Below the pieces are notes generated by a model. The model did no database searches. It saw nothing but the letters and a program-made list of their open reading frames with translations, and had not been told where the DNA came from. Shown piece after piece: positions 9,691-43,773 of a stretch of 64,000 nt of DNA. How positions within the stretch are numbered: position 1 is the stretch's first letter; every line of letters begins with the position of its first letter. The DNA is from Chitinophagales bacterium (GTDB taxonomy: Bacteria; Bacteroidota; Bacteroidia; Chitinophagales; JADJOU01). The stretch lies in assembly GCA_030832185.1 (NCBI GenBank), contig JAURJQ010000003.1, forward strand, positions 62,001 through 126,000, given 5' to 3'. The position numbers were made by a program, and so were the translations under genes.

Positions 9691-10443
9691 TTATAAGAAA
9701 AGTTGATTACTTAATTTATTAGATAGAATTAAGGTATTCAAAAATACAGAATTCTGTAATTCTATGAAATATTTAATCTGCTGCGGATGATGAATATCGG
9801 AGGATACATAAGTGTAGGCTCCATGTTCTATTAGCCTTTCAGCCATTTTTTGAGATTCAGCTCCAAAAAGGCCTACCAGTGAAAAAAGATTTAGCTGTAG
9901 TTCCACCCCCATATCAATCAATCTTAGATATAAATCTATGCAATTCTTCTCTTGATATATGTATCGATAGCGCTCTGGATGAGCTAGTATCAGCTTATAC
10001 CCCAATTTTTGTAGTTCAAAGATATAGTCATTTACAAAAGGAAAATCATAATTCATCGAGGTCTCAATTAGTAAATGGTCGTTGCCTAGGGTCAGGAAAT
10101 TGTTCGACTTTATTTGATCTTCAAATTTTTCATCTAGCAAATATTCAGCGGTAAGACCTAATTCTAGGTTTAAATCTACTACCAATTGCGAATTTTTAAA
10201 ATCCTCGAATCTTGCCGTCAGCTCATGTTTAGTGTTGGTATATCGTTCTCCCATGATATGCGGACTCACATAGACCTTTTTGTATCCTCTATGCTTCAAT
10301 TCAGTGAGAATGGTTATAGATTCCTCTATGGTTTGACATCCATCGTCTACTGCTGGCAGCCAGTGCGCATGAAAATCCACTGCTATATTAGAGAAGTCAA
10401 TAGTAGGAAGCGCCTGAGATTTTTTTTTCAGTAGTGAAAACAT
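9691..10443 (-). CDS. CpsB/YwqE-like PHP-domain tyrosine-protein phosphatase
   Basis: Member of the metal-dependent PHP family that includes capsule regulators CpsB and YwqE, which dephosphorylate tyrosine kinases of polysaccharide synthesis. Metal-ligand motifs are visible: DFHAHWLPAVDDGC, HRGYKKVYVSPHI, LAHPERYRYI and SSDIHHPQQ. The frame reaches a TTG at 10455, but the ATG at 10441-10443 gives the more usual start. It heads the operon with rfbC, rfbD and cysQ. Its likely substrate, the Wzc-type kinase, is encoded 27 kb away (37841-40285). That pairing is inference from family knowledge. Confidence 0.88.
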   Translation of the reverse strand: MFSLLKKKSQALPTIDFSNIAVDFHAHWLPAVDDGCQTIEESITILTELKHRGYKKVYVSPHIMGERYTNTKHELTARFEDFKNSQLVVDLNLELGLTAEYLLDEKFEDQIKSNNFLTLGNDHLLIETSMNYDFPFVNDYIFELQKLGYKLILAHPERYRYIYQEKNCIDLYLRLIDMGVELQLNLFSLVGLFGAESQKMAERLIEHGAYTYVSSDIHHPQQIKYFIELQNSVFLNTLILSNKLSNQLFL

Positions 10444-10847
10444 ATTCAGATACAAAAGTATCGACTATTCGACATTGCTGAGTTACTATTTTTGATTTAA
10501 GGAGTATTTTCTCGAGCATAAAAAATTTAAAATGGAAACTGTAATATTAATTAAAGACACAATTTTCCATAATTTAGGAATTTTTCATTTTCGCAAGACT
10601 GCTATAAGAACAGGCATAAACTAACATTTATAAAAGTACAAATAAAAAAGTCTTCAATTTAGATTCCAAATTAACTGTCGTACAGGACAATTACGGCTCA
10701 TTCAACACATCCCAAAGCCTAAAAAACAATCTATTCCTCTGAAAGTTAAGAGTATATGTTTATTGATTTAAAATTAATACATTGAAATTCAATTTTTTTT
10801 ATATATTTGCACCCTCAAAATAAAAAAGTAACATAAAATAAATATAA
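10444..10847. other. Intergenic region upstream of rpsL
   Basis: About 400 bp of AT-rich sequence between the divergent phosphatase operon and rpsL. Apart from the rpsL promoter at its right end I see no ORF, tRNA or strong hairpin. It must also hold the promoter of the minus-strand polysaccharide operon, which I could not place. Confidence 0.6.
10782..10809 (+). promoter_or_regulatory. rpsL promoter (Bacteroidota type)
   Basis: A TTG (10782-10784), 17 bp of AT-rich spacer and TATATTTG (10802-10809) match the Bacteroidota sigma-A pattern TTG-N17-23-TAnnTTTG. Transcription would start near 10815, giving a leader of about 30 nt that is A-rich and has no Shine-Dalgarno sequence before the rpsL ATG at 10848. 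Confidence 0.72.
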
Positions 10848-19561: not shown

Positions 19562-22500
19562 TTACCAGAACAAATGCAGAGAACCTTGCTTCTCTATTTT
19601 GCGGCCATCGAGATAGGTAATGGATATGAAATATGTGTATACACCTTGTGGAGCTCTTTCTCCTTTATATAATCCATCCCATCCCAATATATCTGGACGA
19701 TCGCCATCAAAGACTTTCTCTCCCCATCGGTTAAATATTTTCATATTCCCTCGTAAAATATTTTTAGAGTAAAGTTTAAAAACTTTGTTTTCTGCATGAT
19801 CTGCCAGTGGCGAAAAACTATTGGGTATATAAAGCTCTGTGTTTGTCCGCACATATATCTTGGTGTTGTCACGGGTTACACAGCCATTCCAGTTTTTAAT
19901 TTCTAAATTATACTGCTGCGTGGCAAAAGGTGTAGTGATAGGATTAGGGCAATCTGAACAGCTCAAACCTGTGCTCGGTGTCCATAGCATATCTTTAATT
20001 CTAGAAGAGTCCCCACTTAAAACCTTAAAGGAAAGGCGTGCAGATTCTGCGAGATCTATAGTTTGCTCTTCAGGCAGAACCTTGAAAATAATTTTATCCT
20101 TGGCTTTCATGTAGATGCTATCATATACTAGGCAACCATTATCTCCCATCACAGCTATCAAGTATAATCCGGAATCCGTTACTATAAAGTTATTGTTTTT
20201 TCGAAAACTCTTGGCATTATCTATACTATAGCTTAAAGGTGAAACTCCAAGACTGGCTTTTATATCTATATGACCTATATCATCACAATCGAGATCAGAA
20301 CCAATAATGGTATCTATTTGTAAGTACGGCGGATTCTCTATCTTATACTCGCTATTGTTTTTACAATTGTTCTTATCTTCGACGGTGAGTTTGTATACTC
20401 CATCCAGAAGATTGGAAATATGATTCGATTGATTTCCATGACTCCAACTATAGAAGTAAGGAATTGTGCCCCCGAGGACACTTATCTTTATCTCACCTTT
20501 CGTATCATCTTTACAAACGTTATTTCGAAGGAGGTCTAAGCGAATCCGCAGCGAATCTGGCTGGTTCAGCGTGTATCGCTCACTAACCCTACACAGGCTA
20601 TCATCGGCAACCGTAACTGTATACTGACCTGCTTCTAAATTATCTATGAAAGGTGCAGTACTACTCAATCTATCCCAAACATAGTTATAGGGGGCTATGC
20701 CGCCTTCTGCGCTTACTTCTAGGAGACCTTTGTTATCTTTGAAACATTGTAAGTGCTGCTCTCTAATCGTTTTTATAATAAGCGGCATGGGTTGCATCAT
20801 ACTATAGGTATCGGAGACCAGACATCCTTTGCTATCTATTATAAAAAAAGAATCTACAGTGACTGCTTTTAACCCTTTAATCGTGGGAGCAGTCTGCCAT
20901 ATGCCTTTACTTTCTTTATACTGATATGGAGGGAAGCCATTGATAGCAGTGATAAGAAGCTCCCCCGAAGAGTCATTATAACACCGCAGGTGTTTAGACA
21001 GTTTTATAGCATTCAAGCTGCTATTGACGACATTAATCTCTACGGTATCTCTGTTTGTACACTTGGTGACCAAATCCAAAACATAAAGTGAGTATTTAGT
21101 GAATATAGAAGTCTTTGTCCAAGGTTGAGCCACTGTATGTGCATCTAATCCTAGACTAGGATTCCACGTGTAGGAACAATTGGATTGTGCACTCGTACCC
21201 AGACGTATACTATCTCCAGGACAGTGGATTCGAGTCTGGTCGGCTCCGGCTATGGCTATGGGCAGACTATTTACCTTTAGAGATAAAGTGACGAAACTAT
21301 CGCAACCTCCACTATTCGACAAGGTATCATAGTAAATGCCCGACAGTGTATGTTGTTTACCATTAAAACTATAGAAACTATCTGCACAAATATTTGCGCT
21401 ATAGCTAAATGAGGATGTTGATTTGACAGTTAAATACAAATGGATGATACTATCACAGCCCTTGGAATTGATCAATGTATCGAGATAATGTCCAGCTAGC
21501 GATAGAAGCTGATTATTGAAAAATAGGGTAGAATTGCTACAAATAGTATCATATCTATTACTCGCACTCGTATCGTTTACAGTTAGGCTGAGATATACAA
21601 ACGAATCACATCCCTTATGATTCATCAAGGTATCCTTATAAAGACCAGATGTCTTCAAGAGACTGCCATTGAACCATATGGGCAGATTCTTACAGGTCGT
21701 CTGAGTATAGAGGTAGGAAGAGGTATCCTTTACGGTTAGATACAAATTTACAAAACTATCGCAGCCTAGTCTATTTATTAGGGTGTCTCGGTATAGGCCA
21801 GAGATAGATGGATACTGGCCATTAAACAACTTTGGATGATTCGCACAGATCGTATCATTCTGTATGCTGGTACTCGTATCCGATACTGTCAGGTGAAGGT
21901 AAACAAAACTATCACAGCCTAGATTATTCACTAAAGTATCCGCATAAGTTCCCTGGGATATTCTGCTTTTACCATTGAAAAAATAGGACTGATTCGAGCA
22001 GATGGTATCAAAATAGTTATAAGTCGATGTCGATCTGACACTGAGGTGAAGATAAACGAAACTATCACAGCCTTGACTATTGACAAGGGTATCTCGGTAG
22101 ATACCCGCTAGGGTTTGAATCTGTCCATTGAATGATCGAAACTGATTCGAACATATTGTGTCATAGATGCTACTAGCGCTGGTATCGAGAATAGATAAAT
22201 TGAGATACAAAAAACTATCACAGCCCTGTCGATTGACCAAGGTATCTCTATAAAAGCCAGCGGTATTTAAGTAGACCCCATTGAAGAGGATGGGCTTATT
22301 CTTACATACACTCAGCTGGAGTGTCTGTGAAGAAGAATCGGCTACGAGTAAGTGTAAATTGATAAAACTATCGCATCCGAGAGTGGTCGTCAGGGTGTCT
22401 CGATAGTGTCCTGTGGTGCTGCGGACTATTCCATTAAAACTGATCGACTGTCCGCGACATATGGATAAGAAACTATCCTTAAAGCCAAACAATCTCAAAG

Positions 22501-24939: not shown

Positions 24940-26946
24940 CTATTCTTTTACCAATTTCAAATGACTAATTTTCCCTTCATTGGTCAATTTTACATTGTAA
25001 AGTCCTTTGCCTAGTTCTGCTATCTCAAATCCATTGGCACCTTTATGAATAAAATCTCTGTGGTAAACCACACGTCCCATCATATCTGTGATCTCTATCT
25101 GCATAGGGCTGCCAATAGTGGCAGTAGATTTCAGAATAAATCCTGAGGATACAGGATTGGGGAATATCGTAATATCTGTCTTAGCTTTCATACTCAGTTG
25201 CTTCAGTCTAGGTAGGAAGGGATTGGAATTGTCGAAATCCTTGGTTTTGATATAGATATTATCCGTAAAATCTTCCAATATGGCATGTGCAGAACCATCA
25301 ATATCGGCGAGATGGTTGTCTGACAAATTTAACAAAGCTGCTCCTTTAGGTATTATTGCCGTATTATGGAGAGCAAAATGGGTGTTGGGTACAAAGGCAT
25401 TGCATCCTATTGTTGGGTGCCAGAAAGGTCCACCAGGTCCACCAGGTCCTCCACTCATTGAAACCATAGAAGAAAAATCTGGTGCGCCATAATAGGATAA
25501 TGGTAATGCAAGGGGACCTAAAAACATAGGTTTTCTACCGCTATTTATAAAATTATTGGAAACAGTAACATCCGTAGGAAAATTCACAGTATTCGTCCAG
25601 ATAGACTGAGCTATATCCACTCCCACATAACGGAAACTATTGGTTTCTTGATCTTCATTAATTTGGTTGACTGGAATTTTTACTTGGCAGTCCATGTTAT
25701 TGATGATAGCAAAAATATGCGGGTCTATATCCCAGCAGTCAGGATCTTCTGGTGGGCAGCTATTTGTCAAAACAAAGGTATTTCTGTGGGCATGGAATAT
25801 GGATTCACTATAGGACTGTCTTCCGAAATGCTTTACATAATTAGCAGTAGGTGTCAATATTTCTTCATAGACCACAGCATATCTGTCTAAGCATAGATGA
25901 TATGGATTATTTACACCAGGACTAAAACTAGTAGAGCCAAAATCGTCTGTACGCGAATAGTTCGAAGAAATTTCAGGATATCGATACGCATTTGTGCTTG
26001 AACTTGGAGCATTGAAAAAACTCGATATATCATGATAGCTTATCTGTGAGTTGGGATATTGAGCGTTTACCGCAGCATTGGGGTCATTATTTCCCGGAAT
26101 AAGCTTAATCACATTCACATAATCTGTAGATGAATTTGAATTCTGCGCTACGTATGAAATATGATAATCATTGCTAATATCAGGATGACTAAAAGTCTCC
26201 ACATTGAGATATAGGGCAGGGTCACAGTAATAGTTCACATCAGCATGATCCTCCATGTCATGTCTTATGTGAGGATTCGTAGTATTATTAGCTATAGTAG
26301 ACTTGATGCTTTGCGTTATCCAGCTAAATGGTGCAGAAACGGATGGCTGTCGAAAAGTGGCATATATAATGTCACCACCTATTTCATAAACAATAGAGGG
26401 TACATGCTTGTAATTTTTTTCACAAACTCTTGGATTGATGCCATTAGCAGAGCCTGGAATAGACTGCGGAAATGCGACAGGATACGTTAAGGATATTGGA
26501 TTGATAGCTCCTGTTGTCGTATTATAATCGAATCTGTCTATCATTATATTTCCTGAGCCAGTAGACTCATATACAAGATAGAATGAATTGTCTCCAGAAT
26601 AGCATACATGTGGGTTTTTAGCACTTGTAATGATGTGGCTAGAAACAACGGCATAGGAGGCTGGAAACCCAGACCATAGCTGATTAATAGAACTGTATAG
26701 GTGTACTTCAAAAACTGCTGGTGACACCTCCTCCTCAGTGGCTATAATGGATACAAAACTATTAGAAGTGCTAGTAGACACATATTGTCCACACATTTCT
26801 ATTTTGTTCTTAATATTCGCACTCACACCAGTGAGCTGAATAGGGTTGGTGGTTGGTGTATTGACAACAAATTGTGCGGTCAATACCCCGCAAATTGCCA
26901 GACTGAGACAAAAAATGATGTGTTTTTTTAAGCTGATTTTTTTCAT
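24940..26946 (-). CDS. Secreted protein with T9SS type A sorting domain
   Basis: 668 aa. The N-terminal signal peptide is MKKISLKKHIIFCLSLAICGVLTA, then Q. The C-terminal 75 residues (TDITIFPNPVSSGFILKS, IEITDMMGRVVYHRDF, LGKGLYNVKLTNEGK) are a type A T9SS sorting domain, which predicts export and attachment to or release from the outer surface. The body has repeated phrases about reading dates and values that suggest a beta-propeller-like fold, but I recognise no catalytic motif. A short GGPGGPGGP tract lies near residue 500, encoded by the tandem word at 25434-25457. The gene is monocistronic, has its own terminator, and diverges from a small XRE regulator. Confidence 0.85.
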   Translation of the reverse strand: MKKISLKKHIIFCLSLAICGVLTAQFVVNTPTTNPIQLTGVSANIKNKIEMCGQYVSTSTSNSFVSIIATEEEVSPAVFEVHLYSSINQLWSGFPASYAVVSSHIITSAKNPHVCYSGDNSFYLVYESTGSGNIMIDRFDYNTTTGAINPISLTYPVAFPQSIPGSANGINPRVCEKNYKHVPSIVYEIGGDIIYATFRQPSVSAPFSWITQSIKSTIANNTTNPHIRHDMEDHADVNYYCDPALYLNVETFSHPDISNDYHISYVAQNSNSSTDYVNVIKLIPGNNDPNAAVNAQYPNSQISYHDISSFFNAPSSSTNAYRYPEISSNYSRTDDFGSTSFSPGVNNPYHLCLDRYAVVYEEILTPTANYVKHFGRQSYSESIFHAHRNTFVLTNSCPPEDPDCWDIDPHIFAIINNMDCQVKIPVNQINEDQETNSFRYVGVDIAQSIWTNTVNFPTDVTVSNNFINSGRKPMFLGPLALPLSYYGAPDFSSMVSMSGGPGGPGGPFWHPTIGCNAFVPNTHFALHNTAIIPKGAALLNLSDNHLADIDGSAHAILEDFTDNIYIKTKDFDNSNPFLPRLKQLSMKAKTDITIFPNPVSSGFILKSTATIGSPMQIEITDMMGRVVYHRDFIHKGANGFEIAELGKGLYNVKLTNEGKISHLKLVKE

Positions 26947-35298: not shown

Positions 35299-36795
35299 TT
35301 GAAAAATATAGATGAATCAGACGTGTATAGTAGTCTCATAAATAGTTTTTTTATTTGGAAGCAAAAAAGGCTGACTCAAAACTATCATTTAAATATAGAG
35401 TCTCAAGGGCATCTTCTAGATGATATAATTAAAAAGAATAAGTCTTGTGAATATCTAAAATCAATAGGGATAGAGAATATGGAAGGTTTTCAAATTCATT
35501 GTCCTGCCGCCAACTATGACGATATTGAAAATTATATTCTAGAAATTAAGGAAGGAAGATCAAATAGACTAACAACTGAAAAAATTGTTGCTCTGGCTAT
35601 GTCCAGTGGTACAACGAGCCGCAGCAAGTTTATTCCTTTGTCTGCATCTGGTATAAGCGCTAATTATACAGCAGGTAAGACCATGCTCAGTCAATATATA
35701 GCGCACAACACAAAGTCTAAAATTCTGGAGGGAAAAAATTTTTCTTTGACGGGAAGCTATACTAAGGTCAATGAGCTCATAGTAGGAGACGTCTCTGCTC
35801 TTTTCACCTATTTCCTTCAGCCTCTATACAAGCCGTTTCGAGTTCCAAATAGAGATATAGCCACGATACCAGATTGGAAGGATAAAATGGATAAAATGAT
35901 TCCTATTCTCGCCAAGAGTGACGTTAGATGGATAGCGGGTATACCTTCATGGATGAGTATGGTCATAGATCGAGTAGAAGACTATACTCAGAAAGATATT
36001 TATAAGGTTTGGAAAAATATGGAGGTTTATTTCTATGGAGGAGTTAATGTGAAGCCATTTGAGTCTTATTATAGGGAGAAATTTGGAGATCATTTGGCTC
36101 TGTGGCAAACCTATAATGCAAGTGAGGGTTTTTTCGGATTACAAATGGACCCCAATTCAGATAGTCTTGGCTTTCTCCTAAATACAGATAATTATTATGA
36201 GTTTATACCTTATGCTGAGATAGAGAATAAAAATCCATCTATCCTTTCTATAAAGCAGCTAGAATTGGATAAATCTTATGAACTTCTTATTACCAATACA
36301 TCGGGTTTGTATCGATATCGCATGGGAGATATACTAAAAATAACAAATATAAATCCAATTCGTTTTGAGATTGCTGGACGGACCAGAAATAGTATCAATG
36401 TTTTCGGAGAGGAACTTATGGTAAATAATACAGAGAAAGCGATTACAGAGCTAAATAAGGAAATGAATTTTTTAATTAAAGATTATACGATAGCGCCTGT
36501 AATTACTGGAAATTCAGGACATCACCACTGGCAAATAGAATTTATAAAAGAACCGCAAAGTTTATTTCATTTTCAAACACGATTAGATGAAATCATCCGT
36601 CAACTAAATTCAGACTATGATGCCAAGCGATATGATGATTTAGTGTTAAAACCATTGACTATAGAGTTATTGGATAGAAATTCAATGGATAAATGGATAG
36701 AAGCCACCAAGCGGGTATCCGTGCAGGCTAAGGTTCCAAAATTATGGAAGGATACAAGTATTCAGAAACAAATTAGTGCCATTATGAATGCTTAG
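35299..36795 (+). CDS. GH3-family acyl-adenylating protein
   Basis: 498 aa, similar in plan to plant GH3 acyl-acid amido synthetases of the ANL superfamily, which activate a carboxylate with ATP and join it to an amino acid. The ATP-loop AMSSGTTSRSKFIPLS is the phosphate-binding motif, YNASEGFFGLQ the second adenylate motif, and YRYRMGDILKI the third. The start is a TTG at 35299: a stop lies 24 bp upstream in frame and no ATG occurs before the conserved region. It is divergent from purB by 43 bp. Its 3' end overlaps the convergent transferase gene by 14 nt. The bacterial substrate is unknown. Confidence 0.82.
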   Translation: MKNIDESDVYSSLINSFFIWKQKRLTQNYHLNIESQGHLLDDIIKKNKSCEYLKSIGIENMEGFQIHCPAANYDDIENYILEIKEGRSNRLTTEKIVALAMSSGTTSRSKFIPLSASGISANYTAGKTMLSQYIAHNTKSKILEGKNFSLTGSYTKVNELIVGDVSALFTYFLQPLYKPFRVPNRDIATIPDWKDKMDKMIPILAKSDVRWIAGIPSWMSMVIDRVEDYTQKDIYKVWKNMEVYFYGGVNVKPFESYYREKFGDHLALWQTYNASEGFFGLQMDPNSDSLGFLLNTDNYYEFIPYAEIENKNPSILSIKQLELDKSYELLITNTSGLYRYRMGDILKITNINPIRFEIAGRTRNSINVFGEELMVNNTEKAITELNKEMNFLIKDYTIAPVITGNSGHHHWQIEFIKEPQSLFHFQTRLDEIIRQLNSDYDAKRYDDLVLKPLTIELLDRNSMDKWIEATKRVSVQAKVPKLWKDTSIQKQISAIMNA

Positions 36796-37837
36796 GAATA
36801 AAAGCTTTTGCTTTTATATAAACATATTGAAATATTAAAAAACTAGCTATCCATAAAACAAGAATGCATCCATGAAATTGAGGTTCATTCCATTTAAGAC
36901 CTATAATAATAATTATCATATTTATTATTAATAATAAACTAACCGCCTGCCAGTCTTTCAAACCTAAGAAAACTAGGTGATGGGAGATGTGATCTTTCCC
37001 ACCTACAAAAGGTGATTGTTTTCTCAATAGTCTATGAATAATTACTGTAGTTGTATCAAAAATAGGTATGGTGAAGAAAAGAAGGGGTAAAAAAAACTGA
37101 TTTAATTGAAAATAACCACCGTCCGCAGTTCTATTCTGCCACAAAGTAAACATAGAGATATGAGCTAGCACTATACCTATAAACTGAGAACCAGAATCTC
37201 CCATATACATCCTAGATGGATACCAATTAAATATTAAAAAACCCAGTAAGGCTCCTATCATAGAGATAGTTATTATGTTACTTATCGTATAGTTTTTAAT
37301 AACAAAGATTATCGCAAAACCTATTAATATACTGATAGATATAGAAGCGGTTAGTCCATCCATATTATCGAGCAAGTTGATCGAGTTCATTAGAAATACT
37401 ACCCATAGAATGGTGAAAAAACTATTCCAGAATAAACTAGGCGAAATTGGAATGATTTGATTGAAGCAAACTAGAGTAACTCCGCAAATAATCTGTCCTA
37501 ATAACTTTAATAGTGGATTCGTATTTCTAGCATCGTCTATAAGCCCAATAAAAAACCCAATAGAGGCAGCTGACAAAAGTGAGACATCTCTATAAAAATC
37601 GAAACTATCATTTGGAAATACATTGGCCAGTATTAAACTCGAGAATATGGCATAGAAAATTAAAAATATAATATAAAAAGATAAGCCTCCACAGGAAGGT
37701 TTAAGCTTTTGCCATCGAATTTCCTCCTTTTCAGATATATCTCTATTACCTAAATTTATAGAGTAATTTAATAAAATCCAATTGACTGAAGTGGAAATAA
37801 GAAAACTGATAGAAATAACTAAAACGAAGGATAACAT
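36782..37837 (-). CDS. WecA/MraY-like glycosyltransferase family 4 protein
   Basis: Polytopic transferase (351 aa, about ten spans) that moves a sugar-1-phosphate from a UDP-sugar to undecaprenyl phosphate, the first step of polysaccharide assembly. The Mg-binding aspartate motif is NSINLLDNMDGLTA, the second is SRMYMGDSGSQF, and a His-containing loop DHISHHLVFLGL follows. It is the last gene of the exopolysaccharide operon, 3 bp after Wzc, so here it is more likely the initiating transferase than MraY of murein synthesis. Confidence 0.88.
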   Translation of the reverse strand: MLSFVLVISISFLISTSVNWILLNYSINLGNRDISEKEEIRWQKLKPSCGGLSFYIIFLIFYAIFSSLILANVFPNDSFDFYRDVSLLSAASIGFFIGLIDDARNTNPLLKLLGQIICGVTLVCFNQIIPISPSLFWNSFFTILWVVFLMNSINLLDNMDGLTASISISILIGFAIIFVIKNYTISNIITISMIGALLGFLIFNWYPSRMYMGDSGSQFIGIVLAHISMFTLWQNRTADGGYFQLNQFFLPLLFFTIPIFDTTTVIIHRLLRKQSPFVGGKDHISHHLVFLGLKDWQAVSLLLIINMIIIIIGLKWNEPQFHGCILVLWIASFLIFQYVYIKAKAFIPKHS

Positions 37838-37840
37838 GGT

Positions 37841-40285
37841 TTATAATTTCCAGTCTAAATAATTAAAGAACCGCTTAAATATACCAAGTTTTTTTCGCTC
37901 GTCTGTGTCAGTATAATAGCCGTTTTCGGATTCTTGGTATTTGCCATAGCCATAGCCATAGCCATAGCCATAGCCATAGCTTGAGTTGACATAACTAGAA
38001 GGTCCTTCTCCAAAATGATTTACAATAAGAAATAAATTTGAATTTTTCTTTAAATTATCAGTTTCATTAAGCACATTTACGAAACTCTTATGAGAATGAT
38101 TTAATTTAACCAAATAGAGTGGGATATCTACTTTATTGACTATTTCAATTGATTCATTCACTAGGCCTATAGGAGGCGTATCGATAAATATATAATCATA
38201 CTTCATTTTAAGCTCTGTCAATATATCATCGAACCTCTGGCTAATGATGAGCTCTGAAGGATTAGGTGGAATTGGCCCAGAGGTAATAATATCTAAGTTT
38301 TTTATATCCACACTTCGATGTATGCAGTCATCAATTTTTACAGATTTATCAGTCAATAAATTGCTCATCCCTAAAGAATTGGAGAGCTTGAACGATTTTG
38401 AAATTCTAGGTTTTCTTAAATCGAGGTCTATAATCAACACTTTTTTATCCAGCAGAGCATGAACAGCTGCTAGGTTTATAAGCACAAATGTCTTTCCTTC
38501 ACCTGGTATTGTACTAGTAGCACAAATGGTCTGATAGTCGTCTGCGGAAGTATACTTAAGGCTAGCTCTTATTTTCTTAAATACTTCTGAAATTCTAGAC
38601 TTAAAGTTTGAAAGCACTACTAGTCTTGATTCAGGTGAATTCTTGTTTTTTACATTTAAATCTTCAGCTTCAGGCACAAATGGAATATAACCCAATATTG
38701 GCACATGGGTCTTACGTTTTATTTCTTCTACCGAGACGATTTTGTCTAGGTAGATATAGCGCATGATAACTATGCCAAAAGAAATTATAATAAATAATAG
38801 GAGACTACCGAAATATACGAGGTTATTTCTTGGATAAATTTGTTTTTCTGTGGTTTTTGGGGGTTGAATTAAGATATAATCTGCTCCAATGGAAGACTTA
38901 AGTATTAGATATTGAATCTGTTTTTCAATAAGATCGAAAACATATTTTTCTTTGATATCTAATTCTTTTTGAATTTTAGAGAGGTACATGTCTTTCTCTG
39001 GTAGGCCAGCTAATCCAGATATAGTCAATTCCTTTTTCTGTCTATATCTTGCTATTCGACTTTGTGATGCAGTTATTTCATTTTTAAGACTTCTCTGTAT
39101 TGTTTTTATCTGTTCTTGAATTTGTCTATCTAGAATAGCTATAGTTGGATGGGATGGTCTTAAATCTACTAAAAGTTTACTTCGCTCTAATATTAACTTT
39201 CCTAATTCTTTATCGTCATTCAAATTTAGACTCTCCATACTATGGTTAGTATTGGCATCTATTTCTCTCTTAATTCGCTCTAAAGTGGATAATTCAAATT
39301 CCAATCCGTCCATTTCTTTTTTATAGAGCTCTATATCTGAAATACTAGACTCTAGTTGAGCACTTGGATTATAGGCAGAGTTTGAACGCACATAATCTAA
39401 TTTTTCATTCTCACTCGCCTTTACTTGTCTATTGATAGTATCTAAAAATCCTTTAATATAATGTATAGAATTTTCTATACGCTCAGCATTTTCCATTTCA
39501 TCTAGACGGAGAAATCCAGTTATGATATCTGAAAGAAGTTTTTCAGATTTACTAGGTGTGGAGCTCTTTAGAGAAAAGTATATGTTTGGACTGGCATTGG
39601 TTACATTCACTTGTGACAAAATGAAATTGAGAACCTGCTCATTTGAATTAAATACAACTGTATATTCTCCCTCTATATCATTTTCCGTAACATTTACCTT
39701 TATTTTTAAATCCTGGTTTCTATATGTCGTTTCGGTTTTTAAGTTTTTGATTTTTACGTTTTTGCCGTTTGCCAAATAAGTTAAATCAAACGAATTTTTA
39801 TCATGAAAGTCAAAAAGAACTTCTGTATTATATACAGACTTATTATAAATTTTGAAATCATTATCTAGGACGAAAACACTTCCTGGGTTTAGTTCGAACC
39901 TTTTATAAAACATTCTCCCTTTCTTAAAATATTGAACTTTTAGTTGTAGAGAATCCATCAGTTTATTGATGAGTAAGTCGGATTTTATTATTTGAATGTC
40001 TCTATTTAATTTATCCTCATCATTAGATTTAATAAAGTTAATATTGTCATTGCCTAGTATAGTATTATTATTTTCCTTTTTTTTGATTAAGGCAGCCTTT
40101 GTTTCAAATATGGGTGTCGTGTAGCGGAGGTACAAGAATGGTATCAGCAGACTTAGGAAAAATAGAGGGATTATGAAGAACAGGGATTTTTTTGTTATAT
40201 ACAGTAGGAGATTTAATTCAAAATTTTCAAAAAAATCTTGAATTAAATCTCTTTTTGGTATACGATCTCCTGTGGTTGTATTCAA
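37841..40285 (-). CDS. Wzc-type polysaccharide co-polymerase and tyrosine autokinase
   Basis: 814-aa inner-membrane protein controlling chain length and export of exopolysaccharide. The N-terminal span (about residues 35-53) and a second span near 485 flank a periplasmic region with coiled coils, the Wzz domain. The cytoplasmic BY-kinase has Walker A (STIPGEGKTFVL, Lys598), Walker A' (VLIIDLDLRKPR) and Walker B (YDYIFIDTPP). The tail has a six-fold Tyr-Gly run at residues 770-781 and three further tyrosines, the autophosphorylation cluster. The tail DNA is a perfect hexanucleotide tract. Wza starts about 9 bp upstream. Confidence 0.94.
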   Translation of the reverse strand: MNTTTGDRIPKRDLIQDFFENFELNLLLYITKKSLFFIIPLFFLSLLIPFLYLRYTTPIFETKAALIKKKENNNTILGNDNINFIKSNDEDKLNRDIQIIKSDLLINKLMDSLQLKVQYFKKGRMFYKRFELNPGSVFVLDNDFKIYNKSVYNTEVLFDFHDKNSFDLTYLANGKNVKIKNLKTETTYRNQDLKIKVNVTENDIEGEYTVVFNSNEQVLNFILSQVNVTNASPNIYFSLKSSTPSKSEKLLSDIITGFLRLDEMENAERIENSIHYIKGFLDTINRQVKASENEKLDYVRSNSAYNPSAQLESSISDIELYKKEMDGLEFELSTLERIKREIDANTNHSMESLNLNDDKELGKLILERSKLLVDLRPSHPTIAILDRQIQEQIKTIQRSLKNEITASQSRIARYRQKKELTISGLAGLPEKDMYLSKIQKELDIKEKYVFDLIEKQIQYLILKSSIGADYILIQPPKTTEKQIYPRNNLVYFGSLLLFIIISFGIVIMRYIYLDKIVSVEEIKRKTHVPILGYIPFVPEAEDLNVKNKNSPESRLVVLSNFKSRISEVFKKIRASLKYTSADDYQTICATSTIPGEGKTFVLINLAAVHALLDKKVLIIDLDLRKPRISKSFKLSNSLGMSNLLTDKSVKIDDCIHRSVDIKNLDIITSGPIPPNPSELIISQRFDDILTELKMKYDYIFIDTPPIGLVNESIEIVNKVDIPLYLVKLNHSHKSFVNVLNETDNLKKNSNLFLIVNHFGEGPSSYVNSSYGYGYGYGYGYGKYQESENGYYTDTDERKKLGIFKRFFNYLDWKL
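37943..37978. repeat. Six tandem copies of a hexanucleotide in wzc
   Basis: GCCATA is repeated six times without mismatch on the plus strand (TATGGC on the coding strand), encoding the Tyr-Gly run of the kinase tail. Because the unit is 6 bp, slippage changes tyrosine number without shifting the frame. Confidence 0.95.
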
Positions 40286-40294
40286 TGCGATATT

Positions 40295-41083
40295 TTATTT
40301 GGTAACAGTCACAAGTAAAACTATAGTGGATAAAATACCAGATAGTATTGCTAACGGTGTTGTGATTATAGGTGTTATATCTTGCATACTATTATATAAT
40401 TTTCTTTGTTTTTCTGGTATGTAGACTATATCTTTTGACTGTAAATAGATTTCAGAATTTTGTATTCCCTGAAAAGTTTGAAGGTTTGCTTTATAAATGG
40501 TAGGTTGTTTCAAATCACCTCGAATTATTAGTATTTCGGCACTACTATGATGTCTTTCGAGACCACCAGATTTTGCTATGACTTCAAAAATACTCGTTGG
40601 GGTCCTATTTAGTTGAACAACACTAGCTGTATTGCCTTTGAAAAGAAACACTCGTCTATTTTCAACTCTAAGTTGCACAAATGGTTGAATATAATTACTT
40701 TCAAACCTTTTTTCTAACAACTCTTTCAATCTACTTTCCGTATGATTATTAACGACTATGGCGCCTAGAATTGGCAGCTTAAGAATACCCTCATTAGAAA
40801 CTATATAGGTGGACTGTGATACTTGCTGTCCAGCTTCTTGTGAATTTGTTACATTCGTTCTAACGGCCTCTATTAATTGAGCTCCCTGACGTGTATATAG
40901 TTTTATGCTAATTTCATCTCCTGGCTGAATTAGATAATCATTATTAAGTTCATCTATAGCGCGACTCATTTTCTTAGTATTGATATCCTGAAACATTGAA
41001 TTTTGATAGGTTTTGCAAGAACCTAACAAAAAAAGCAAAGATAAAAGGGTGCAAAAAACGCGTTTTATGTTCAAAATTATCAT
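40295..41083 (-). CDS. Polysaccharide export lipoprotein (Wza-like)
   Basis: 262-aa outer-membrane export channel component. Signal peptide with lipobox LLGSC gives a lipidated N-terminus. The Poly_export domain begins YLIQPGDEISIKLYT, followed by an SLBB-like region (VFLFKGNTASVVQL...PTSIFEVIAKSGGL). Unlike E. coli Wza it ends in a hydrophobic segment (ITTPLAILSGILSTIVLLVTV). The frame begins at a TTG (41095), but the ATG at 41081-41083 is preferred. It sits between the regulator and Wzc in the same operon. Confidence 0.9.
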   Translation of the reverse strand: MIILNIKRVFCTLLSLLFLLGSCKTYQNSMFQDINTKKMSRAIDELNNDYLIQPGDEISIKLYTRQGAQLIEAVRTNVTNSQEAGQQVSQSTYIVSNEGILKLPILGAIVVNNHTESRLKELLEKRFESNYIQPFVQLRVENRRVFLFKGNTASVVQLNRTPTSIFEVIAKSGGLERHHSSAEILIIRGDLKQPTIYKANLQTFQGIQNSEIYLQSKDIVYIPEKQRKLYNSMQDITPIITTPLAILSGILSTIVLLVTVTK

Positions 41084-41100
41084 AATAAACCGCAAAAATA

Positions 41101-43773
41101 CTAGGATTTTTCTGATTGGTTGAAATATTCTTTAGGAGTGAATCCAAACTCCTTTTTAAAGCTGTAAGAAAAGTAGGTCGTGGAACTAAATCCTACTTTA
41201 AATGCTATTTCTGTTACATTGGCTACTTTATTCTTTATCAGTTCCTTTGCTTTTTCAAGTCTTATTTTCTGAATATAAAAATTAGGAGTTGAGTTATTGA
41301 TTTTTTTGAACCTTCTAATAAGAGTGAATCGACTTACATTTAGGTGTTTGGCTAGGTCATTGACCGATAGACTTTCATTTTCTAAATGGTTTAAAATGAA
41401 TTCTTTAGCTTGATGCAGAAAAGCATGATCAGACGATACTAAATCCTCATCCGAAAGTTTGAGTATATTCGATGAAAATTTATCTAAAATCTTTTTACGC
41501 TGCTCTAGCATATTGCCGATTGTCTTGGATAATTCTTCTATATTAAACGGTTTAGTGATATAGGCATCTGCTCCAGATTCTAGCCCTAGCAGTTTATCAT
41601 TGACCTGTGTTTTAGCAGTAAGAAGTATTACGGGTGTATGGTTTAGATTCTCATCTTGTTTGATAAAATTACAAAGCTCTATCCCATTCATAAGCGGCAT
41701 CATAATGTCACTCAAAACTATATCTGGTATATGTTTTTTTATTTTAGCTATGGCCTCTCGTCCATGATCGGCTGTATATACCTTGTATGTTTCTTGTAAT
41801 ACTTCTCGCAATAGTTTCTGAATCTCCAGATTGTCCTCTACTATTAGTATGGAATTTTTCTTAGTACTCGCAGTAGAATCGCTTTTTTGTGTAGTTTTTT
41901 CTCCTTTTTTTAATTTTTCAATACGCTCGATAGGTAGCGTAATCTTGAATTTCGATCCTTTGTTTTGTTCGCTTTCTAGTTTGATTTCTCCATGAAGCAG
42001 AGATACTAATTCTTTGACAAAACTAAGTCCCAACCCACTTCCTTTGACATCTTTGGTAGTCGGTATTCTATAAAACTTATCAAAAACATGTTCCTGATAC
42101 TCTGGAGCTATACCAAGACCATTGTCTTTGATGACCATGGTCAACACATCGTGATCTATATCTGCATTAAATTCTATATTTCCACCATTCTGTGTAAATT
42201 TAAGTGCATTGGAAAGTAAATTACTTATGATTTTTTCTATCTTATCCGTATCGAAATAGCCTTGAATCGTTTTTTTAGGTAGATGGTAGGTGAAATTGAT
42301 ACCTTTATCATACATCTCAGGTTCGAAAAGATGAATCATGTGCCATAAAAGCGGATTAATGGTCCCTGCTTTTTTCATGACGGGCATTTTTCCTTCTTCA
42401 ATTTTATTGATATCAAGGAGTTGATTGAGGAGGTGCTGCATATGCTGCACATGGGTGGACACATTGGTCATACGGGTGCGTATGACATCGATATTCGTCT
42501 CATTTCTGAGCATTTCTAGCGGTGTATTGATGAGGGTAAGTGGCGTGCGAAATTCATGGGTGAGGTAGGAAAATAAATTGTTTTTATACTCATTGATTTC
42601 GCGCTCTTTGGTGTATTCCAGTTCTTTTTTCTCTAATTCAAAATTTACCTGAACCTCATTGACCTTAGCTTGAAGAGAGAAATTGAATAAATTACTATTC
42701 AATTCTGTCAGCTCTTTCAGAATCTCATAAGCCTTGAGTTTCTCCTTATTGCTATCATAGGCTTTGTAGAGATTATCATAGATTTTTCTTAGCTCGAAAT
42801 TCTGTTTAATCTCCAATGCCATGGCCTTGGCCAATTCGAGATTCTCGATAGCCTGATTGGTATCGCCCATTTTCAGATAGGTTTCCCCCATCATATTGTG
42901 CAGTTTGAGAAGTTCTAGCTTGTACTGAATTTTCTCCAATATTTCCTTCGCTTTTTTATAATGAGCCATTGCCTCTTCGTACTTCTCAAAATCTCCATAA
43001 ATACTGCCTAGCGTGGATATAGCAGTAGCATAGCCCACTTGATCATCTGATTTTTCATAGCTATCTACAGACTGTTTTGCATACTTGAATGCGAGCTTAG
43101 TTCGTTTTTCTTCCTTGTATATTTGAGAAATACCTAGAAGTACCTTACCGTATCGATCAAATAATTCATTTGTCTTTAATCTATCAAGATCTTGAATGTA
43201 TAGTTCTTTTGCTTTTGAGAAATAGTTTAAGGATTGATATATATTTGCAAGATTACCTTTAATTTTAAAGTAAGCATCATGCTCGTTGAATACTTTAATG
43301 TTTTCATAGGCTTTATAATAGTTTTCCAAAGCATGATTTAACTCTCCTGTATCGAGGTAAAAGTTTCCTAATGAATTTAGTGCTGTTGAAATTCTAATTG
43401 GTTCTCCAAACTTTGTGAAGCATTCAACTGATTTTACGATGTAGTCAAAAGATAATTCATAATTACCTTGTAATCTTTTTATGATACTTAAGTCTTGATA
43501 GCAAATTCCTTGCCTATTGTAATCTTTCAATTCTTCATGAATAGGGAGAACTATTTCGATTAATTTTTCAAAAATTTCTTTGGTTTCTGTTTTCTGTCGG
43601 AAAATGTTGTAAAAAAGTGATGCAATTTGGATAATTAATTCCTTATCACCGCAGACTTCAAAACCTTGAAATTGCTTATAGACCTCAAGAACTTTTTTTA
43701 TATCTAAATTTTTGAAATTCAAAAACTTATATTCTTCATAGAATTGTTCAATTTTCTTGCTTTTTTCTCTCAC
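41101..43773 (-). CDS. Soluble TPR hybrid histidine kinase/response regulator with AraC output
   Basis: 890-aa one-protein phosphorelay. About residues 30-370 are TPR-like helical repeats (for example ALENYYKAYENIKVFNEHD, YEEAMAHYKKAKEILEKI). A coiled coil follows. The HisKA domain has the H-box LTHEFRTPLTLI with His406. The HATPase domain carries DNGLGI and GSGLGLSFVKEL. A receiver domain has Asp689 in VLSDIMMPLMNG. The C-terminal 100 residues are an AraC-type DNA-binding domain. No signal peptide or membrane span is visible, so sensing must be intracellular. It is the first gene of the wza-wzc-transferase operon, 17 bp from wza, so it probably controls polysaccharide synthesis (inference). 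Confidence 0.93.
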   Translation of the reverse strand: MREKSKKIEQFYEEYKFLNFKNLDIKKVLEVYKQFQGFEVCGDKELIIQIASLFYNIFRQKTETKEIFEKLIEIVLPIHEELKDYNRQGICYQDLSIIKRLQGNYELSFDYIVKSVECFTKFGEPIRISTALNSLGNFYLDTGELNHALENYYKAYENIKVFNEHDAYFKIKGNLANIYQSLNYFSKAKELYIQDLDRLKTNELFDRYGKVLLGISQIYKEEKRTKLAFKYAKQSVDSYEKSDDQVGYATAISTLGSIYGDFEKYEEAMAHYKKAKEILEKIQYKLELLKLHNMMGETYLKMGDTNQAIENLELAKAMALEIKQNFELRKIYDNLYKAYDSNKEKLKAYEILKELTELNSNLFNFSLQAKVNEVQVNFELEKKELEYTKEREINEYKNNLFSYLTHEFRTPLTLINTPLEMLRNETNIDVIRTRMTNVSTHVQHMQHLLNQLLDINKIEEGKMPVMKKAGTINPLLWHMIHLFEPEMYDKGINFTYHLPKKTIQGYFDTDKIEKIISNLLSNALKFTQNGGNIEFNADIDHDVLTMVIKDNGLGIAPEYQEHVFDKFYRIPTTKDVKGSGLGLSFVKELVSLLHGEIKLESEQNKGSKFKITLPIERIEKLKKGEKTTQKSDSTASTKKNSILIVEDNLEIQKLLREVLQETYKVYTADHGREAIAKIKKHIPDIVLSDIMMPLMNGIELCNFIKQDENLNHTPVILLTAKTQVNDKLLGLESGADAYITKPFNIEELSKTIGNMLEQRKKILDKFSSNILKLSDEDLVSSDHAFLHQAKEFILNHLENESLSVNDLAKHLNVSRFTLIRRFKKINNSTPNFYIQKIRLEKAKELIKNKVANVTEIAFKVGFSSTTYFSYSFKKEFGFTPKEYFNQSEKS

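Follow-up and report, generated by a model that had tools for sequence, protein, structure and literature searches.

A perfect hexanucleotide repeat coding for Tyr-Gly in the tyrosine tail of a Chitinophagales Wzc-type kinase

Six perfect copies of TATGGC, read in frame as (Tyr-Gly)6, lie in the C-terminal tail of a Wzc-type polysaccharide co-polymerase encoded in a 64,000-nucleotide stretch of a Chitinophagales genome (hereafter the window). We consider that the tract probably serves as the phosphorylatable ladder of an ordinary Wzc BY-kinase, in which the Tyr-Gly (YG) protein sequence is selected and the perfect DNA repeat is a young product of slippage or duplication. Across the sequences compared, the simplest reading is that the YG protein array is under selection while its DNA is scrambled by point mutation and sometimes re-homogenised or resized by duplication or slippage. 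Under such a combination of selection, scrambling and occasional re-homogenisation, the perfect tract of the window would be young.

The Tyr-Gly tract and its host gene

The open reading frame (ORF) that carries the tract (Table 1) scores 133.1 bits against TIGR01007 (cut-off 108.05) and matches AAA_31 above cut-off. The Wzz-type N-terminal domain PF02706 gives a weak match below cut-off (20.2 bits vs 25.5, E = 7e-4). Among known structures, the protein matches CapA1-CapB of S. aureus (3bfv, E = 5e-36) and Wzc of E. coli (7nhr, E = 1e-32), and further Etk, BceF and VpsO; the best phmmer stretch against 7nhr covers residues 43‒785. All 140 aligned homologues, the window Wzc among them, have the Walker A Lys. 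A pseudokinase that keeps its tail without catalysis had been considered when a first regular expression missed Walker A in 5 of 19 homologues, and this idea was dropped on the alignment. The segment EVFKKIR resembles ExxRxxR, which we take to be the oligomerisation motif of BY-kinases, with Lys in place of the first Arg.

The C-terminal tail is rich in Tyr, with 11 Tyr within the last 60 residues. Downstream of the YG array it contains a second tyrosine motif, GYYTD, and the pattern GYY[ST][DET] is present in 41 of 109 tails of the host order. The TIGR01007 score above cut-off, the Walker motifs and the C-terminal position of the array all bear out the first-pass annotation of this DNA, which had placed the tract on the tyrosine tail of a Wzc-type BY-kinase. 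By homology, the tail tyrosines of the window Wzc are presumably autophosphorylated.

The sequence, TRF and the translation agree on six in-frame copies on the minus strand, as the same annotation had read them; on the plus strand the array reads as (GCCATA)n over 37943‒37980. TRF ranks the tract as the top-scoring tandem array in the window (score 76, 6.3 copies, 100% matches; next best 51). Nowhere else in the genome assembly (2.2 Mb, 31 contigs) does the TATGGC unit occur in at least three copies, and in 421 kb, comprising the window and 20 other stretches of the genome, this is the sole perfect hexamer array of at least three copies whose unit is not itself a shorter repeat. Over 228 ORFs of the genome, TAT accounts for 79% of Tyr codons and GGC for only 20% of Gly codons. 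With this codon usage, the probability of six identical Tyr-Gly units of any kind is about 8e-4 and that of six TATGGC units is 1.6e-5; when codon usage is taken from the wzc locus alone, the probability of six identical units is 0.0025. The tract is therefore a perfect short tandem repeat beyond chance expectation, a property of contingency loci. A 9-bp repeat, AGGTCCACC (3.1 copies, 25426‒25453), lies elsewhere in the window within the ORF at 24940‒26946.

Table 1 Features of the wzc locus and its probable partners in the window
Feature	Position	Strand	Basis or remark
Wzc-type polysaccharide co-polymerase / BY-kinase, 814 aa, TTG start as listed (putative)	37841..40285	(-)	TIGR01007, AAA_31, structure matches
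Six perfect TATGGC copies, (Tyr-Gly)6, Wzc residues 770-781	37943..37978	(-)	sequence, TRF, translation
GYYTD, second tyrosine motif of Wzc tail	37907..37921	(-)	translation
Walker B IFIDTPP, residues 699-705	38171..38191	(-)	alignment, numbering
Walker A' IIDLDLR, residues 618-624	38414..38434	(-)	alignment, numbering
Walker A STIPGEGKT, residues 591-599	38489..38515	(-)	alignment of homologues
EVFKKIR, resembling ExxRxxR	38567..38587	(-)	alignment
Wza-type polysaccharide export protein, Poly_export + SLBB_2	40295..41095	(-)	domain match; adjoins wzc
Glycosyl transferase family 4 (GT4, WecA/MraY-like sugar-phosphate transferase)	36782..37837	(-)	domain match; next downstream of wzc
TPR-histidine kinase-receiver-AraC hybrid regulator	41101..43773	(-)	domains; directly upstream of wza-wzc, same strand
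CpsB/CapC PHP-type protein tyrosine phosphatase	9691..10455	(-)	PF19567, 121.9 bits vs cut-off 27

The hybrid regulator directly upstream is a candidate controller of wza-wzc. In the congener Sphingobacteriales bacterium CoA8_V48 (stretch L013), the order regulator-wza-wzc-GT4 on one strand is the same as in the window; there, an ORF whose end resembles the regulator is followed by a wza-like ORF, by wzc and by an ORF whose beginning resembles the transferase, and this wzc is identical in every letter to that of L006. The CpsB/CapC phosphatase shares the strand of wzc and is encoded about 27 kb away, outside the wzc gene cluster, and we infer that it is likely the cognate phosphatase of Wzc. 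A second phosphatase, of the low-molecular-weight (LMW) type, is encoded elsewhere in the genome. By gene presence, the genome thus provides both a Wza partner and a phosphatase for Wzc. The flippase-type family PF01943 has five matches, all on other contigs.

Two other genes of the window were noted. A GH3-family protein is encoded at 35299‒36795 on the plus strand, convergent with the wzc gene cluster; the GH3 family is known for plant auxin conjugation. A 1495-aa protein at 19562‒24049 on the minus strand contains an RCC1-like region, an SprB repeat and a CHU_C type IX secretion signal.

Conservation and turnover of the tail in relatives

An orthologue of wzc is present in two of the four other genomes of the genus, at 65‒66% identity, and searches at E 1e-30 gave no match in G003 (93% complete) or G004 (62% complete). 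Since no match was obtained in G003 despite its completeness, the genus may have a patchy distribution of the export system. The tail is retained in the two orthologues, with (YG)7 in one and (YG)6 followed by Y in the other, and in both the Tyr and Gly codons are mixed, so that a pure hexamer tract is found in neither of the two congeners. The expectation, implied by the first-pass annotation, that synonymous codons would leave the tract unbroken in relatives was thus contradicted in both congeners that carry (YG)6‒7.

At E 1e-30, wzc matches were found in 190 of 298 genomes of the host order. The order survey took one locus from each of 110 of these 190 genomes (30 returned as loci and 80 fetched) from the top of the ranking, and the sample is therefore weighted to better matches. 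Four partial matches and second copies were left out, and one locus (L015) was cut by its contig, giving 109 closed frames; some matches had a stop inside the alignment, and for these only the open stop-to-stop frame was used. Three or more consecutive YG units are present in 102 of the 109 closed tails and at least four in 94. The longest runs range from 1 to 12 units, and between 6 and 22 Tyr (median 12) fall within the last 60 residues; over all Wzc tails read, in the order and in stretches from the phylum, the longest run ranges from 1 to 15. A single hexamer is used throughout in only 2 of the 94 order tracts of at least four units, namely the window tract and that of L031 (six TATGGA). 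The perfect tract is ruled out as a conserved DNA element, as nearly all relatives read use mixed codons.

Across the phylum, a DNA pattern for (YG)5 matched in 50 of 296 genomes, as against 3 for a reversed control pattern. In 19 of 19 stretches opened from among the matches listed (12 genomes, some stretches chosen for pure-looking tracts), the array falls within the C-terminal 59 residues of a Wzc homologue. Since the array is found in Wzc tails across the order and in the phylum stretches, we consider it a protein-family trait, at least in this phylum.

The turnover of unit number was followed in pairs of tails. The pair analysis used 121 tails, 109 from the order and 12 from genus g120, including some second copies in one genome, and took the longest run as the YG number. 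The 28 pairs share no locus, and they are not all independent: genomes G299 and G300 together account for 2 of the 11 closest pairs. Among these non-overlapping pairs, the YG number is unchanged in 9 of 11 at 85% or more body identity; it differs in the other 2, in 5 of 10 at 75‒85% and in 6 of 7 at 65‒75%. In the nine close pairs of equal length, 30 of 47 units are synonymously changed. Since the number of units is kept while so many units change synonymously, selection seems to act on the protein.

The codons of the tails also carry traces of duplication. Blocks of at least six identical units occur in 4 of 93 distinct tracts (0.13 simulated from codon usage) and blocks of at least four in 11 of 93 (2.6 simulated), with the window tract included. 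When the window tract is removed and gene-body codon usage is applied, the counts are 3 of 92 for at least six units (0.29 simulated, P = 0.002) and 10 of 92 for at least four (3.4 simulated, P = 0.002). The long blocks differ by lineage (TATGGC, TATGGA, TATGGG and TATGGT), and in one tail (L116) four TATGGG are followed by six TATGGA. Since identical blocks exceed the codon expectation with or without the window tract, slippage or tandem duplication reshapes the tails. In this respect the first-pass annotation was right: the repeat changes in frame, and slippage or tandem duplication does act on evolutionary timescales.

The size of the duplicated unit is less simple. Relative to codon usage, unit identity is raised at lags 1‒3. 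Within the order tracts, identity at lag 1 is not above a within-tract permutation (0.228 vs 0.240); single-hexamer slippage is therefore not the dominant trace across the order and was set aside as a general explanation. At lag 2 (12 bp), identity within tracts is 0.320 vs 0.241 permuted (P = 0.0002), and the excess persists when each 60%-identity cluster is represented by a single tract (0.345 vs 0.260). In the latter set, Tyr codons tend to alternate (lag 1, 0.543 vs 0.597; median P ~0.01, one of nine uncorrected tests). The lag-2 excess could reflect 12-bp duplications, or codon alternation or selection against perfect repeats.

Genus g174, which lies outside the class of the window's organism, provides a counter-example. 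It was entered because its tracts are long and is thus a chosen case and not a rate. The DNA pattern gave (YG)4 or more in 11 of 65 g174 genomes, and ORFs were obtained for 9 of these 11; the other two, G355 and G488, gave no ORF of at least 80 aa in the stretch. The g174 tails (L211‒L218, L181, L183 and L189) include several near-pure hexamer arrays, and the hexamer varies by species. G399 has nine TATGGC followed by TATGGT, and G508 has five TATGGT followed by TATGGC. Three species that differ in the tract at 85‒88% body identity are G500 (one TACGGC then eight TATGGC, 9 units), G504 (eight TATGGG then TATGGC, plus two units after a Ser, 9+2) and G520 (mixed codons, 4+5+2 units). G343 and G395 have 15 and 13 units, respectively, at 83% body identity, and the tails of G454 and G512 are strongly different at 89%; in G454 (L217), several units read Asn-Gly where Tyr-Gly is expected. 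Since close g174 species differ in unit number, slippage can change the tyrosine number quickly in some lineages, and a steady length is not universal.

Origin and role of the tract

In the reading that we prefer, each tail would feed into the active site of the neighbouring subunit and be phosphorylated stepwise, by homology with E. coli Wzc. Polymerisation and export of the polysaccharide would then be controlled through cycling of the octamer by phosphorylation and by dephosphorylation, the latter probably performed by the CpsB/CapC-type phosphatase of the window. The (YG)n sequence of the protein would be kept by selection, as would, for the most part, its length between close species of the order. 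The perfect repeat would be a young state, generated in (YG)n DNA by tandem duplication or by slippage (expansion, or contraction and re-expansion); synonymous mutation would be expected to erode it, and its copy number may drift through in-frame slippage.

For E. coli Wzc, the available text of PMC11986026 describes a tail that enters the active site of the neighbour and is phosphorylated in steps from the C-terminal to the N-terminal side, in the manner of a YxY ratchet, and an octamer that becomes unstable after the fourth phosphate. Since the (YG)n array is an unbroken YxY ladder, a ladder role suggests itself naturally for the window Wzc. In the E. coli protein, no single Tyr is essential or sufficient (available text of PMC8285477), and thus the gain or loss of one repeat may have little effect in a tail with 11 Tyr in its last 60 residues. 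The direction of the effect is not transferable to the window Wzc, because the sign of the phosphorylation effect varies by system: according to excerpts of the respective papers, high polysaccharide comes from the unphosphorylated form of VpsO in Vibrio cholerae (PMC7485978), and non-phosphorylated CpsD hinders the capsule in pneumococcus (PMC4574921).

The first-pass annotation had gone further and proposed graded control of export or chain length through the gain and loss of tyrosines. Its reading amounts to a contingency locus, in which a perfect tract is kept unstable and slippage yields graded, heritable states. A perfect 36-bp tract whose unit forms no other tract in the genome assembly would suit such a locus, as would the independent near-pure tracts of different hexamers in the distant genus g174, where close species differ; however, g174 is a chosen example, and the pure repeat is found in 0 of 2 congeners and 2 of 94 order tracts of at least four units (window tract included). 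Six copies are, moreover, short for a hypermutable repeat tract. Other bacteria lend the proposal some plausibility. Pneumococcal 19A subtypes naturally carry 4 vs 3 [YGX] repeats, as the available part of PMC8519296 describes, so that within-species variation in the number of tail repeats does occur elsewhere, and in E. coli Wzc it is the extent of phosphorylation that counts and not any one site (PMC8285477 and PMC11986026, available text). With purity lost in both congeners and the YG number equal in 9 of 11 close pairs, the hypermutable switch is not supported; we regard a contingency locus as improbable, and graded phase-variable control of export or chain length is not favoured in this lineage.

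The identity of the six units might also have a trivial source. TAT is the common Tyr codon, and the pure tract was singled out after the fact, so chance or local codon preference might have made the units identical without slippage. This is very hard to reconcile with the low probability of six identical units under genome or local codon usage, with the excess of blocks of at least six that remains when the window tract is removed, and with the different codons of the long blocks in different lineages, some with block structure (L116). Chance is accordingly an unlikely origin of the tract, and an origin by slippage or duplication is supported. That the copy number is an assembly artefact seems scarcely credible: short repeats can be miscounted in a draft of 31 contigs, but common sequencing reads are longer than 36 bp, the reading frame is unbroken, and neighbour species carry 6‒7 units too.

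A speculative idea, to which we give a low probability, is that the (YG)n tails of Bacteroidota Wzc proteins are length-tunable. Duplications of 6 or 12 bp would alter the number of YxY rungs and thereby set the phosphorylations that precede octamer disassembly, and hence the polysaccharide length of each lineage. A bolder form of this speculation is suggested by GYGYGYG peptides, which self-assemble into amyloid-like fibrils (PMC10510724, available text): long tails might also serve as stickers, reversible by phosphorylation, that draw Wzc octamers together, and the repeat number would set how sticky they are. If tail length does set the number of phosphorylation steps, the tails read here, with 1 to 15 YG units, would offer a ready-made series on tyrosine counting by BY-kinases and on the resulting polysaccharide length. 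The preferred reading, a selected ladder with a young DNA repeat, has its own consequences. One low-complexity tail may be shaped both by selection on the protein and by slippage of the DNA, with its sequence kept and its codons scrambled and sometimes re-homogenised. Should the tract be a recent slip and nothing more, it would warn against inferring a switch from a single genome.

Comparison with known systems

The window Wzc resembles E. coli Wzc (PDB 7nhr, 9r62 and 3la6) in its kinase domain with Walker A, A' and B, in its probable fused periplasmic and transmembrane part, in its C-terminal Tyr tail with YxY steps, and in its probable pairing with Wza and a phosphatase. On the other hand, the tail of E. 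coli Wzc is short and mixed in sequence, and its phosphatase is the low-molecular-weight Wzb, whereas that of the window is of the PHP type. E675, the Tyr-pocket glutamate of E. coli Wzc, aligns with N737 in a loose stretch (counted on the alignment to chain 9r62), and Glu occupies this column in 12 of 140 homologues; position 701, a Lys in K30 Wzc, aligns with Gly. The transfer of the E. coli Tyr pocket by alignment is thus unsupported. Since the residues that support the ratchet in E. coli are not clearly conserved in the window Wzc, a simple transfer of the E. coli mechanism is disfavoured.

CpsD/Wze of Streptococcus pneumoniae, with its [YGX]3‒4 tail, shares with the window Wzc a Tyr-Gly tandem repeat at the end of a BY-kinase. 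It differs in its 9-bp YGX units and in the split into CpsC and CpsD proteins. A mutational study of the (YGX)4 domain reportedly appeared in J Bacteriol in 2003. Our literature search of open-access papers found no report of (YG)n tail variation in Wzc proteins of Bacteroidota.

Like simple-sequence contingency loci, the window presents a perfect short tandem repeat in a surface-polysaccharide gene. Unlike such loci, the TATGGC tract has not been preserved as a pure repeat by its relatives, and since the hexamer changes in frame, it would not produce on/off switching. The likeness within the phylum is to Ptk1 of Porphyromonas gingivalis, also a Bacteroidota protein, which is a Wzc-like BY-kinase with a Tyr-rich C-terminus and for which autophosphorylation is demonstrated in the available text of PMC4082711.
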